Both the position numbers and the translations under genes were made by a program. Below the pieces are notes generated by a model, which did no database searches, was not told where the DNA came from, and saw nothing but the letters and a program-made list of their open reading frames with translations. A stretch of DNA of 44,426 nt from an uncultured Pelagibacteraceae bacterium (GTDB lineage Bacteria > Pseudomonadota > Alphaproteobacteria > Pelagibacterales > Pelagibacteraceae): assembly GCA_902573425.1 (NCBI GenBank), contig CACGJO010000002.1, positions 65,877 to 110,302 on the forward strand. The letters are read 5' to 3'. Below are positions 28,725 to 34,101 of this stretch, in pieces; position 1 is the stretch's first letter; every line of letters begins with the position of its first letter.

Positions 28725-29542
28725 TATATTTCAAAGTCAATTGTTTCAATCTCTGAGACTGGACCAGTCATAAACATATTTTCTGTTTTATCGATTTTTA
28801 CATTTAAAAAACCTTCTTTAAATTTTATATCTACTTCATTATTAACCAATTTATTCTTAAAACCAGCGACAGCGGTTGCACATGCTGCTGTCCCACATGC
28901 TTTAGTTAGTCCAGCGCCTCTTTCCCAAACATTAACAGTTATATTATTTTCATCAATTATCTGAGCCATTGTTACATTGGCTTTTTCAGGAAATAGAATG
29001 TGGTTTTCAATTTTTGGACCTATTGTTTTTAAATTATATTCAAAACAATTCTTCACAAAAAAAATTATATGTGGATTTCCTACGTTTACACAAAATCCAC
29101 CTGTAAATTTCTTATTATTTATCTCTAAAGTAATATCTGCTGGGTTTATTTTTTTTGATAAAGGAATATCTTCAGAATTAAATAATGGTTTTCCCATTTC
29201 AAGTTCTACTTGTAAATTTCCTACTATTTTTGCATTAAGAAGACGGTTGTTTGTTTTTAGTTTTATTTCTTTTGTGTTTAAATTTTTACCCAAAAGATAA
29301 GCTACGCATCTAGATCCATTTCCACATGCACTTACTTCACCTCCATCAGAGTTGAAAATTGTTATTGGAAAAGAATTTTCTTTTTCTTTTTCTATAAAGA
29401 TTATTTGATCAAAGCCAATGTTAGATCTACTTCCCAATTCAATAATTTTTTCTCTTGTTAAATTAATAGAATTTTTTCTTCTATCAACAATGATAAAATC
29501 ATTACCTAAGCCATCCATTTTGTAAGCGTTAATTGATGTCAT
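28724..29542 (-). CDS. dapF: Diaminopimelate epimerase
   Basis: The 272-residue length is usual. The two catalytic cysteines are Cys73 (GGEVSACGNGSR) and Cys216 (GLTKACGTAAC), and the N-terminus has the typical KMDGLGNDF. The enzyme converts LL- to meso-diaminopimelate for lysine and peptidoglycan synthesis. Its stop overlaps the ftsY start. In many alphaproteobacteria mtaB lies between dapF and ftsY; here it is missing. Confidence 0.97.
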   Translation of the reverse strand: MTSINAYKMDGLGNDFIIVDRRKNSINLTREKIIELGSRSNIGFDQIIFIEKEKENSFPITIFNSDGGEVSACGNGSRCVAYLLGKNLNTKEIKLKTNNRLLNAKIVGNLQVELEMGKPLFNSEDIPLSKKINPADITLEINNKKFTGGFCVNVGNPHIIFFVKNCFEYNLKTIGPKIENHILFPEKANVTMAQIIDENNITVNVWERGAGLTKACGTAACATAVAGFKNKLVNNEVDIKFKEGFLNVKIDKTENMFMTGPVSEIETIDFEI

Positions 29543-29552
29543 AATTGATTAG

Positions 29553-29558
29553 TATAAT
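29553..29558 (+). promoter_or_regulatory. Candidate -10 element for the ffh transcript
   Basis: A perfect TATAAT lies on the plus strand in the dapF-ffh divergent gap. Transcription would start near 29565, about 30 bases before the first paired base of the leader RNA. No convincing -35 was found at the ideal spacing (TTGATG at 29533-29538 leaves only 14 bases). Confidence 0.4.
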
Positions 29559-29595
29559 TATTCATTGACTTTTAAAACCCTTAATTGTAGCTTCT

Positions 29596-29688
29596 CACCA
29601 CTTCCGCAAATGTTAGATTTTGCGGTGCCTTTAGAAATAAAGGGATCGACACTAGTCAGCGAGGGTTCGCCCACTAGTGCGATTGGTG
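29596..29688 (+). ncRNA. Multi-hairpin structured RNA in the ffh 5' leader
   Basis: Four helices can form in order. Closing helix: CACCA (29596-29600) with TGGTG (29684-29688). Hairpin 1: CCGCAAA (29604-29610) with TTTGCGG (29619-29625). Hairpin 2: CCTTTA (29628-29633), a GAAA tetraloop, and TAAAGG (29638-29643). Hairpin 3: ATCG plus CACTAGT (29645-29656, one bulged A) with ACTAGTG plus CGAT (29673-29683), capped by GGG-TTCG-CCC or GCGA-TCGC pairing. Nearly every base is paired, and stable GNRA and UUCG loops occur. It ends 18 bases before the ffh ATG. It is not the SRP RNA: the conserved GGAAGGAAGCAG-type domain is absent. A cis-regulatory leader or a processed RNA is likely. Confidence 0.75.
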
Positions 29689-29706
29689 TTGGATGAATTA
29701 AAAAAA

Positions 29707-31056
29707 ATGTTTGAAAACTTAACAAATAAATTAGAAGGAATACTAAGCAAACTAAAAAAAGCCCCTTCTCTGAATGAAACACAGGTTGAAACAGGGTTGA
29801 AGGAAATTAGAGAGGCACTTTTAGCTGCAGACGTTTCACTAGCTGTAGTAAAAAAATTTATAGAAGATATTAAACCCAAAGCTATTGGTCAGGAAATTAT
29901 TAGATCGACCTCACCTGGTCAAATGTTAGTAAAAATTGTTTATGATCAATTAGTTCAAGTTTTAGGTGGCAAAGGAGAAGAACTCAATCTTAAAGCTGTT
30001 CCACCCGCTTCAATACTATTAGTGGGTTTACAAGGATCAGGAAAAACCACAACAGCTGTAAAATTAGCTAAAAATATTGAAAAAAATTATAAAAAGAAAA
30101 TTTTACTTGCGAGTCTTGATGTTTATAGACCTGCAGCACAAGAGCAATTAAAAATATTATGTGAAAAAAATAATTTAAATGTCCTTCCTATTATAAAAGA
30201 TCAGTACCCAATTGATATTACAAAAAGAGCCAAAAATGCAGCATCATTAAGTGGAGCAGATATTATAATCTATGATACTGCAGGGCGAACTCAAATAGAT
30301 TTAAATATGATGACAGAGATTAAAAATATCAAAGCAGAAGCCTTGCCTATCGAAACAATATTAGTTGCAGACTCCTTAACAGGACAAATAGCAGTCAAAT
30401 TAGCTTCTGAGTTTGATAAAGCAATTGACCTAACAAGCATAATATTAACAAGAGTTGACGGAGATGGTAGAGGTGGTGCCGCTCTTAGCATGAAACAAAC
30501 AACAGGAAAACCTATTAAATTTATAGGTGTTGGAGAAAATATTAATGACTTCGAAACATTTCACCCTGACAGGTTAGCAAACAGAATTCTTGGAATGGGA
30601 GATATAGTTTCTTTAGTTGAAAAAGCTTCACAAGACTTGGATGAAGAAAAAATGAAAGCTGCAGAAGAAAACCTTAAAAAAGGAACATTCACTTTTGATG
30701 ATTATCTAATGCAAATAAGACAAATGAAAAAAATGGGAGGAATGGAAGGAGTTTTATCTCTTTTACCAGGAGTTGGAAAAGTAAAAGAGCAAATGCAAAA
30801 TGCAAATGTTGATGAAAAACTTCTTACAGCAAACGAAGCAATAATTTTGTCTATGACAAAAAAAGAAAGACAAAATCCTGATATCATAAGTGGCTCTAGA
30901 AGAAAAAGAATATGTTTGGGTTCTGGAACAGATCCTCAAACAATTAATAGGCTCTTAAAGCAATTTAAGATGATGTCAAAGATGATGAAAAAAATGTCAA
31001 AAGGAAAAGCCCCCAAAGGGCAAATTCCCGATGAGTTGTTAAATAATCTAAAATGA
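29707..31056 (+). CDS. ffh: Signal recognition particle GTPase Ffh
   Basis: The 449-residue protein starts [17 protein letters not shown] at the ATG at 29707, the standard Ffh opening; upstream in-frame GTG/TTG codons lie in the structured leader. The N domain is followed by the G domain with [33 protein letters not shown] and [10 protein letters not shown]. The Met-rich M domain contains [17 protein letters not shown] and [13 protein letters not shown], the RNA-binding part. It binds signal sequences on the ribosome and docks with FtsY, encoded divergently nearby. rpsP follows after 10 bases. Confidence 0.97.
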
Positions 31057-31066
31057 AAGGAACAAA

Positions 31067-31483
31067 ATGTTAAAAATAAGACTATCAATGGGGGGAGCAA
31101 AAAAGCGACCAGTCTACAAGATAGTTGTAGCTGACAGTAGATTTCCAAGAGACGGAAGATTTATAGAAAAATTAGGATCTTTTAATCCTCTTCTACCAAA
31201 GGAAAAAAAGGAGAGAATTAAATTAGAGTCTGAAAGAGTAAAACATTGGTTGAGCAAAGGCGCAAGGCCAACAGTAAGAGTTACTAGAATTCTTGGTGAG
31301 GCTAATATTATGCCAATGCCTAAACCAGGAAATAATCCTAAAAAAGCAATTCCTAAAAAAGATAGGAAAAAAGATGGTAAAGAAGAACCAAAGAAAGAAG
31401 CTCCAAAGCAGGAAGCTAAGAAAGAAGAACCAAAGAAAGAAGCTCCAAAACAGGAAGCTAAGAAAGAAGAACCAAAGAAATAA
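31067..31483 (+). CDS. rpsP: 30S ribosomal protein S16 with repetitive C-terminal tail
   Basis: The 138-residue protein has a normal S16 core: [21 protein letters not shown], then [15 protein letters not shown], then [16 protein letters not shown]. The core ends near residue 90. After it comes a Lys/Glu/Pro-rich tail with a 14-residue unit ([14 protein letters not shown]) repeated twice plus a partial third copy. A clear AAAGGA Shine-Dalgarno precedes the ATG. The usual rimM between rpsP and trmD is absent; trmD starts 3 bases after this stop. Confidence 0.97.
31382..31480 (+). repeat. 42-bp in-frame tandem repeat in the rpsP tail
   Basis: Unit 1 spans 31382-31423 and unit 2 spans 31424-31465. 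They differ by a single visible base (aag/aaa for one Lys codon). A 15-base partial third unit spans 31466-31480, just before the stop. Each unit encodes [14 protein letters not shown]. Near identity at DNA level suggests recent slippage. Confidence 0.92.
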
Positions 31484-31485
31484 CA

Positions 31486-32181
31486 ATGTGGAAAGCACGA
31501 GTATTCACTTTGTATCCAGAAATATATCCTGGCCCTTTAAACAAAGGGCTCTACGGTAAAGCTTTAGAAAAAAAAATTTGGAACTTAGAGGTCGTCAATA
31601 TTAGAGATTCAGCTGAAGACAAACATAAAACGGTTGATGACAAACCATTTGGAGGAGGAAGTGGAATGCTTTTAAAGCCAGATATATTAGGAAAATCTAT
31701 TGATGCAAATGTAAAAAAAGGTGAAAAAATATTTTACCTAACACCTAAAGGAAAGAACTTTAATCAAAAGAAAGCGAAAGAATTTTCTAAGGAAAAAGTT
31801 ATAAATTTAATATGTGGACATTTCGAAGGAGTAGATGAAAGAATACTGAACACAAGAAGCATCGAACAGCTAAGTATTGGAGATTATATTTTATCAGGAG
31901 GTGAGTCAGCATCGTTTGTGGTGATTGATACAGTTTTAAGATTACTACCCGAGGTGCTTGGAAATAATAACTCAAAAGATGATGAAAGCTTTGAGCATGA
32001 TTTATTGGAATACCCTCAATATACAAAACCACAAATATGGGAAAAAAAAAGCGTCCCAGATGTGCTTTTATCTGGTAATCATTCTAAAATTAAAGACTGG
32101 CGTTTATCACAATCAAAGGATATAACACGACGCCAAAGACCAGATATGTGGAAAAAATTTTTAGAAAAAGAAAAAAAATGA
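31486..32181 (+). CDS. trmD: tRNA (guanine-N1)-methyltransferase TrmD
   Basis: The 231-residue protein has the SPOUT methyltransferase landmarks of Trm[20 protein letters not shown], then [16 protein letters not shown], then [14 protein letters not shown] and [17 protein letters not shown], which form the knotted SAM site. It methylates G37 of tRNAs reading CUN, CCN and CGG codons, to prevent frameshifting. It is within the rpsP-trmD-rplS operon and overlaps rplS by ATGA. Confidence 0.97.
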
Positions 32182-32690
32182 AAAATATAGAGGAAATAAA
32201 CAAAGTAAATGTTCAAAAAATAATTCAGAAGAAAAAAATACCTGAATTTTTCCCTGGGGATACAATTCGTGTTGGCGTGAGAATTGTAGAAGGAAAAAGA
32301 GAGAGAATCCAAAATTTTGAGGGCGTTTGTATAGCTAAAAAAAATAGAGATATTAATTCTTCATTTAAAGTTAGAAAAATTTCTTTTGGAGAAGGAGTTG
32401 AAAGGACTTTCGCTTTATATAGCCCGGTTATTGGATCAATTAAAGTTATTCGATCTGGTAAAGTGAGAAGAGCAAAACTTTACTATTTAAGAGATAGAAA
32501 AGGAAAATCCGCAAGAATTGCTGAAAAAATTAAAAAAAATATAGGAATAGAGGTTGATGTTAAAACCTCCACGAATGAGGATCCAGCAACAGAAATTACT
32601 ACGGAAAAAAAAGTTGAATTAACAAAAAATTCTCCCGAACCAAAAGTTGAAGAAAAAAAAGAAATAAAAAAATCAGATAAAACAAAGTAA
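32178..32690 (+). CDS. rplS: 50S ribosomal protein L19 with charged C-terminal extension
   Basis: The 170-residue protein starts at the ATG at 32178, which overlaps the trmD stop. The core is a standard L19: [19 protein letters not shown], then [14 protein letters not shown], then [22 protein letters not shown] and [12 protein letters not shown]. It ends near residue 115. A further 55 residues rich in Lys, Glu, Thr and Pro form a low-complexity tail, similar in character to the S16 tail. L19 sits at the 30S-50S interface. Confidence 0.96.
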
Positions 32691-32697
32691 TATACTT

Positions 32698-34101
32698 ATG
32701 CCAAAAACTTTATACGATAAAATTTGGGAAGATCATCTTGTACATCAACAAGAAGATGGCACATCTTTACTTTATGTAGATAGACACTTAATTCATGAAG
32801 TAACAAGCCCTCAAGCTTTTGAAGGCTTAAGATTAAATAAAAGAAAAGTTAGACAACCAAAACTTACTTTAGCAGTCGCAGATCATAATGTGCCAACTAC
32901 CGACAGATCCAAAGGAATTAATGACGAAGAATCTAAAGTGCAGGTTGATACTTTAAGAAATAATTGCAAAGAATTTGGAGTTCCACTATTTGACATGAAT
33001 GATAAAAGGCAAGGAATAGTCCATATCATTGGCCCAGAACAAGGCTTTACTCAGCCTGGATCTGTAATTGTTTGTGGAGATAGTCACACAGCTACCCATG
33101 GTGCATTTGGTGCGCTTGCTTTTGGAATTGGAACATCTGAAGTTGAACATGTTCTAGCAACACAAACATTAATTCAAAAAAAATCTAAAAATCTTCTTCT
33201 TAAAGTTGATGGTAAATTACCAATTGGGGTCACAGCCAAAGACATAATTTTAAAAATTATAGGAACAATAGGAACCGCTGGTGGCACAGGATTTGTCATC
33301 GAATACTCAGGAGAAGTTATTAAAAATTTTAGTATGGAAGAAAGAATGACTATTTGTAATATGACAATTGAAGGTGGAGCAAGAGCTGGATTAATTCAAC
33401 CTGACGAAAAAACATTTAACTATTTAAAAAACAGACCAATGTCACCAAAAAATGAAAAATGGACAAAAGCTTTAGAGTACTGGAGCAGACTAAAATCCGA
33501 TGAAGGATGTAATTTTGACAAGGAAGTTATAATAAAAGGAGAGGAAGTAGCACCCCAAGTTACGTGGGGAACATCACCGCAAGATGTAGTCCCTGTTAAT
33601 GGTTCTGTACCAGATCCAAAAAATGAAAAAAATCAAGATAGAAGAGTAGCAATGGAAAGATCTTTAGACTACATGGGACTAAAACCAAACACAAAAATGA
33701 CAGAAATTAAAATTGACAAAGTTTTTATAGGCAGCTGTACGAATGGTAGAATTCAAGATCTAAGGGAGGCCGCAAAGTTGCTTAAAGACAAAAAAATTGC
33801 AAAACATGTTAATGCTATGGTTGTTCCAGGTTCTGGTTTAGTTAAAAATCAAGCCGAGCAAGAAGGTTTAGATAAAATTTTTAAAAACTCAGGTTTTGAA
33901 TGGCGAGAGCCTGGTTGCTCAATGTGCTTAGGAATGAATGAGGACCAGTTAAAACCAAAAGAAAGGTGTGCGTCTACATCAAATAGAAATTTTGAAGGTA
34001 GACAAGGAAGAGGAGGAAGAACTCACCTTGTTAGTCCAGCTATGGCAGCCGCCGCTGCTTTGGATGGCCACCTTTCAGATGTAAGGAAATTTGGTAGTTA
34101 G
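32698..34101 (+). CDS. leuC: 3-isopropylmalate dehydratase large subunit
   Basis: The 467-residue length is typical. The enzyme isomerises 2- to 3-isopropylmalate in leucine synthesis. The aconitase-family landmarks are present: [20 protein letters not shown], the 4Fe-4S cysteines in [13 protein letters not shown] and GCSMCLGMN, and [20 protein letters not shown]. leuD follows by one base. It lies 7 bases after rplS, so leucine genes may share the ribosomal transcript. Confidence 0.97.

Follow-up and report, generated by a model that had tools for sequence, protein, structure and literature searches.

The closest described relative of the element analyzed here is the ffh motif, reported as a single bulged hairpin in SAR11, Rhodobacterales, Sphingomonadales, and Rhizobiales; the accessible part of that paper demonstrates no function and names regulation of ffh as a possible one (Meyer 2009, PMC2704228). 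In Sinorhizobium meliloti, the gap between dapF and ffh holds sm5, a candidate sRNA of 108–258 nt in predicted length, with a sigma-70 promoter, an array signal, and a putative Rho-independent terminator (PMC2573895), which resembles the present leader by position, and RNA-seq has detected an RNA upstream of ffh, the ffH leader RNA, in Bartonella (PMC7717549). As far as the accessible text of these two reports goes, they suggest that the region yields a discrete RNA in other alphaproteobacteria. A candidate leader upstream of rpsP-rimM in Flavobacteria has been proposed, in the accessible part of its report, to bind ribosomal protein S16 (PMC7247131); it too is the leader of an rpsP operon, and it is likened to ours by gene context alone, its hosts belonging to another phylum.

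Locus and promoter of the leader

The window, i.e., the whole analyzed stretch of 44,426 nt from an uncultured Pelagibacteraceae bacterium (order Pelagibacterales, class Alphaproteobacteria), carries ffh, rpsP, trmD, and rplS in a row, with dapF and ftsY divergent from them (Table 1); FtsY scored 189 bits in a profile search. The open reading frame that follows at 32698–34101 was labeled leuC by us. The S16 encoded here has a long, repetitive tail rich in Lys, Glu, and Pro, and the contigs of several relatives stop near this gene, perhaps because of repeats of this type.

Upstream of ffh, the Rfam family RF01793 ("ffh sRNA") matched positions 29635–29687 with 54.5 bits (cut-off 35) over model positions 1–52 of 52, and this was the sole Rfam match at the gathering cut-off in the whole window. 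The element is thus already known, and it is the published SAR11 motif whose existence the original prediction, made from the sequence, had suspected. In common with the motif as described in the accessible part of PMC2704228 are the hairpin here termed P3, two conserved cytosines (C29657 and C29672, which face each other), and the place upstream of ffh. To that single hairpin our analysis adds two more hairpins (P1 and P2), a promoter, a tail of fixed length, a link to rpsP in genomes without ffh, and the observation that, in some members of the class, the base adjoining the C.C mismatch takes part in a pair. Within the order, 131 of the 147 genomes had the motif, and within the class 95 of 337. 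A loose pattern scan of contigs placed it at most 400 nt 5' of ffh in 28 of 119 cases among the matches listed. When model R1 was run against 199 genomes of the phylum, 11 gave a match, namely the genome of the window and ten of the same class, under strict filters that may miss weak matches and with the share of genomes from outside the class not given.

Table 1. Features of the leader and of the genes that follow it, in window positions
Feature	Positions	Strand	Basis or remark
-35 box TTGACT of the leader promoter	29565–29570	+	TTGAC conservation
-10 box TAGCTT	29588–29593	+	17-nt spacer from the -35 box
Hypervariable stretch from the -10 box to P1, containing the CACCA arm	29594–29600	+	0.15–0.40 bits/site
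Hairpin P1 (CCGCAAA/UUUGCGG)	29604–29625	+	pairing in 62 order sequences
P2 with basal strand pair CGGU (29623–29626)/AUCG (29645–29648)	29623–29648	+	covariation
Hairpin P3 (core of RF01793)	29650–29679	+	Rfam match and pair counts
11-nt tail ending at U29690, then G29691	29680–29691	+	predicted pause position
ffh	29707–31056	+	TIGR00959, 553.8 bits; start codon consistent with homologues
rpsP (ribosomal protein S16)	31067–31483	+	TIGR00002, 99.5 bits; 10 nt 3' of ffh
trmD	31486–32181	+	NF000648, 291 bits
rplS (ribosomal protein L19)	32178–32690	+	TIGR01024, 148 bits

The promoter had been sought in a TATAAT at 29553, which turned out not to be the conserved element; the conserved one is a TTGAC box. 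TTGAC was found 28–48 nt 5' of P1 in 65 of 66 distinct regions of the order (at 38–41 nt in 62), and 55–140 nt 5' of P3 in 77 of 79 loci of the class. In the order, TA followed TTGACN at 15, 16, and 17 nt in 5, 47, and 38 occurrences, respectively (85 sequences), and in the class it lay 17 nt past TTGACN in 30 of 77 loci. These data predict a sigma-70-like promoter and a transcript that begins near 29600. A generic promoter scan of 29480–29760 recovered neither the TATAAT nor the TTGAC promoter. Between the -10 box and the first hairpin, positions 29594–29600 and their homologous bases vary strongly among close relatives, with conserved flanks on both sides: over 66 distinct regions, the bases 4–10 nt 5' of P1 carry 0.15–0.40 bits/site, and the two that directly precede P1 reach 1.8.

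Three hairpins and their covariation

The predicted transcript (29600–29690) folds with -35.2 kcal/mol (z -4.3), a value equaled by 0 of 1000 dinucleotide shuffles; the longer interval originally proposed, 29553–29706, gave a z of -3.2. Pairing was analyzed in two alignments. One (A1) holds 62 of the order's 80 distinct leaders, near duplicates being excluded, and the other (A3) holds 30 of 31 leaders of the class, which were chosen by eye for a clear P1-P2-P3 arrangement, one with wrong coordinates being left out. The comparison with Rfam and the covariance check over relatives' leaders, both suggested with the original prediction, yielded the match to RF01793 and compensatory changes in the hairpins, so that the claim of a structured leader before ffh held, in the form of three covariation-supported hairpins at 29604–29679. 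The covariation support is strongest for P2 and P3. Four of five whole-structure measures lay above nearly all shuffles of the 62 order leaders, and the measure of further pair types was without excess (302 of 500 shuffles were as high).

In the 62 order leaders, the two parts of P1 were paired in 98.8% and 89.2% of cells, P2 in 93.6%, with both-sided changes in six of six pairs, and P3, including its outer extension, in 96.0%. P2 carries the GAAA loop that had been ascribed to one of the hairpins. P3 had been described as an 11-bp helix with a bulged A; the helix exists, and its actual form is 7 bp, a C.C mismatch (29657/29672), an A.C mismatch (29658/29671), and 4 bp (GCGA/UCGC), the last retained in 62 of 62 order leaders. 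Across the sequences compared, the C.C mismatch is a constant feature of P3. The second mismatch is unpaired in 27 of the 30 class leaders chosen by eye and is, as judged by eye, a pair (C-G, G.U, or U-A) in many other members of the class. In the same 30 leaders, P3 and P2 covaried (55 cells changed on both sides against a shuffled mean of 14.1), strongly in P3 and to some extent in P2.

RNAalifold, applied to the order set, lengthened P2 downwards by CGGU/AUCG and left P1 undrawn; because it pairs the CGG strand of P1 into the base of P2, CGG is common to both hairpins. This base covaries within the order (RNAalifold alignment), and an automatic rule found it fully paired in 71 of 82 order and 18 of 97 class sequences. 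Among the 30 class leaders chosen by eye, one of its pairs showed both-sided change in two sequences, two pairs were invariant, and one merely broke, in two sequences.

Other parts of the original fold did not hold. A UUCG cap is not conserved, and some relatives lack the GGG that such a cap needs. The outer extension of P3, AUCG/CGAU, is stable in the window, but relatives gave p values of 0.284 (order) and 0.134 (class subset), and it was rejected. The proposed closing helix CACCA/TGGTG (29596–29600/29684–29688) was paired in 42.9% of cells in the 62 order leaders, and a permutation test returned p = 0.009 in the order, with no correction for relatedness, and 0.295 for the class as a whole. 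Since its CACCA arm falls in the hypervariable stretch, that arm probably lies mostly 5' of the transcript start. In view of the weak pairing across relatives and this hypervariable 5' arm, a closed four-way junction (P0) was rejected.

Genes that accompany the leader

To learn which gene the leader accompanies, we examined what starts just 3' of it. A recognized Ffh start was found there in 174 of 180 loci. Four of the other six have rpsP directly after the leader, all in one alphaproteobacterial family; of the remaining two, L168, at a contig end, gave no gene, and L172 has an Ffh N-terminus recognized by eye only. Five genomes of that family (93–97% complete) were searched with an Ffh profile, and none matched (G185, G290, G370, G437, and G675; loci L144, L136, L059, L124, L339, and L391–L393). 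The same profile was positive in 14 of 14 control genomes, and each of three comparison genomes yielded an Ffh match plus another that scored like the FtsY of the window. A protein search of the five genomes with the Ffh of the window, a query that BLASTP joins to the FtsY of the window (E 3e-25), returned only one stretch of 17.6 bits, in one genome. Both SRP GTPases, Ffh and FtsY, have thus apparently been lost from this family as judged by these searches; the accessible literature on loss of SRP GTPases, including PMC8321541, gave no match to this family.

The leader lies directly 5' of rpsP in all five ffh-less genomes. In G185 the order is dapF (opposite strand), leader, rpsP, trmD, rplS, and leuC, i.e., the neighborhood of the window minus ffh, and two other longer stretches show dapF (opposite strand), leader, and rpsP. 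A leuC-like match lies on the other strand past dapF in L393. The base of P2 reads CGGU/AUCG in three of the five genomes and CAGU/AUUG and CAAU/AUUG in the others, which are compensatory variants (by eye) and argue that the leader is under selection. P3 and the 11 nt before G are kept in all five (by eye), and the minimum-energy folds draw P3 in all five and P2 in four (not in G437).

Sixty loci, hand-picked among the model hits, were followed downstream. With 1.9–3.9 kb fetched, an rpsP in the same orientation lay 3' of ffh at 55 of the 57 loci from other genomes, and two showed no rpsP inside the fetched stretch. Between the end of the Ffh match and rpsP there are 14–913 nt at 54 of these 55 loci and 2271 nt at L354, so that the adjacency is loose there. 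Of 20 further hits, hand-picked from 28 newly hit genomes, 19 lay before ffh and one, from the same ffh-less family, before rpsP. Because the leader persists before rpsP where ffh was not found, it goes with the ribosomal-protein (trmD) operon rather than with SRP. The ffh-less genomes form one family and so perhaps reflect one evolutionary event, and the leader, together with its promoter, could simply have stayed behind as ffh disappeared. In the accessible literature, no link between the ffh motif and rpsP was found.

The tail after P3 and readings of leader function

Known pauses of RNA polymerase prefer U before G. Of the distinct tails, 63 of the 65 from the order and 67 of the 77 from the class have UG at 11/12 or 12/13 nt past P3, compared with shuffled means of 10.7 and 18.0, respectively. 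In the accessible part of a review, stabilized pauses have a hairpin at 11–12 nt, and NusG-dependent pauses have a motif rich in T that spans -11 to -6 (PMC12288461). The leader shares the former feature, a hairpin 11–12 nt 5' of the 3' end, as a matter of geometry only. As for the latter, class tails are T-rich at -9 to -6 and order tails are not; measured against the NusG-type TTNTTT (-11 to -6), 11 of the 67 tails from the class had four or five of the five T, and none of the 63 from the order did. A run of at least four T occurs in the tail of 35 of 79 class loci; among 85 sequences of the order, one has a T-run. Thus, a pause, not a terminator, is the reading that fits both, and no intrinsic terminator (GC-rich stem plus U tract) was found in the leader region 29480–29760.

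Starting from the promoter, the hairpins, the tail spacing, and the leader before rpsP without ffh, all of which can be read from the sequences, we infer a start site, a pause, a protein ligand, and a direction of control. Transcription from the sigma-70-like promoter would begin near 29600, and the RNA would fold into the three hairpins as it emerges. One of the operon's own products, most probably S16, may then bind the P2-P3 unit, in which the upper stem of P3 is conserved and its C.C mismatch constant. RNA polymerase would pause at U29690|G29691, 11 nt past P3, and the decision would fall during this pause; the outcome would be autogenous control of a ribosomal-protein operon. The leader is independent of Ffh and stays with the ribosomal-protein operon, and therefore we read it as a cis-acting ribosomal-protein leader of ffh-rpsP-trmD-rplS, most likely bound by S16 and acting at a pause near P3, to which we assign an even chance of being right. 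S16 is the likeliest ligand because rpsP adjoins the leader once ffh is gone; L19 or TrmD suits the gene order nearly as well. One hallmark of a ribosomal-protein leader, a conserved covarying structure upstream of a ribosomal-protein operon, is found here, with ffh usually intervening, and no other family of such leaders matched 29500–29800 at E up to 5. Some ribosomal-protein leaders resemble the rRNA site of their ligand. A crude scan for the P3 core in the 16S and 23S rRNA of E. coli showed no excess of hits, with 19 and 33 against shuffled means of 14.3 and 30.7.

Two other routes to control were rejected. An AUG at 29610, inside P1, opens 28 codons (29610–29696) in the window, yet such a leader peptide is rare in relatives: AUG occurs at that site in 4 of 73 distinct order leaders, three of which open at least 20 codons. 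Direct hiding of the ribosome site was set aside as well, that region being predicted unpaired in the fold of the window. The distance from P3 to the ffh start ranges from 17 to 292 nt (median 51; 79 class loci), so that direct blocking of the site is unlikely in general.

The geometry of the tail also bears on a ligand-free element of pausing, stability, or mRNA processing, in which P1 at the 5' end would protect the mRNA and P3 would pause RNA polymerase. P1 starts some 4 nt past the 5' end predicted for the transcript, the tail has the U|G geometry, and class tails are T-rich, all as this reading would have it; however, it leaves the conserved sequence of the upper stem of P3 and the constant C.C mismatch unexplained, and we regard it as rather doubtful. 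A two-state switch or attenuator, in which the CGG strand swaps CCG of P1 for UCG of the P2 base and P3 serves as a weak terminator that releases a small RNA, appears unlikely. The sequences do suggest strand exchange between P1 and the base of P2: G/C/G changes to A/U/A at all three strands, with at least two changes on starred branches of a quick tree from 450 bases of ffh, and among sequences with a full P2 base, 69 of the 71 from the order and 14 of the 18 from the class have the base of P1 overlapping that of P2. The Rho-independent terminator predicted for sm5 in the accessible part of PMC2573895 would also suit this reading. Nevertheless, the changes amount to two independent events only, which leaves a sign test powerless (p 0.5), and the P1 fold of the window is favored by about 2–7 kcal/mol over the alternative. 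Moreover, no overlap of P1 and P2 was seen in the ffh-less genomes (by eye), and both the lack of a terminator-like site in 29480–29760 and the scarcity of T-runs in the order speak against an attenuator.

The original prediction had considered feedback from SRP, with Ffh or 4.5S RNA sensing the SRP level via the leader. Ffh is indeed encoded by the first gene in most genomes, as in the 174 loci above, and regulation of ffh is the possibility named in the accessible text of PMC2704228. This idea is nevertheless disfavored, and we consider it very unlikely, as the leader is kept before rpsP in all five genomes without detectable Ffh or FtsY. The prediction that the leader is not 4.5S RNA was borne out: RF00169 was unmatched in the window at the gathering cut-off and in 29500–29800 at E up to 5. 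At E ≤ 0.001 RF00169 also went unmatched in each of the three genomes searched from the genus, in which a divergent 4.5S-like RNA with a GUAA loop was recognized by eye and by fold before dnaX (L318–L320; the genome of the window and two congeners); one of the three reached 25.1 bits with RF00169 (E 0.14). With such an RNA before dnaX, the leader is no substitute for 4.5S RNA, and mimicry or replacement of the latter was rejected. A metabolite riboswitch would account for a conserved structured leader with constant unpaired residues, but at the examined loci the leader precedes ffh or rpsP, never a metabolic gene. Nothing in the data hints at a metabolite, the other option of the original prediction, and this reading is the most improbable of those considered.

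Returning to the ribosomal-protein leader, we tentatively propose, at odds somewhat short of even, that the "ffh motif" is misnamed and that it would represent S16-bound control of the trmD operon, with a pause read-out across Alphaproteobacteria, that has outlasted loss of the SRP GTPases. According to the accessible part of a 2024 review, nothing has been learned about how the trmD operon is regulated, which is rare for an operon of ribosomal proteins (PMC10931766), so that the reading is both testable and useful. Under it, an orphan motif in print since 2009 would gain a concrete, testable function and would move from protein targeting to ribosome synthesis, and the genomes without Ffh would serve as a natural deletion test.
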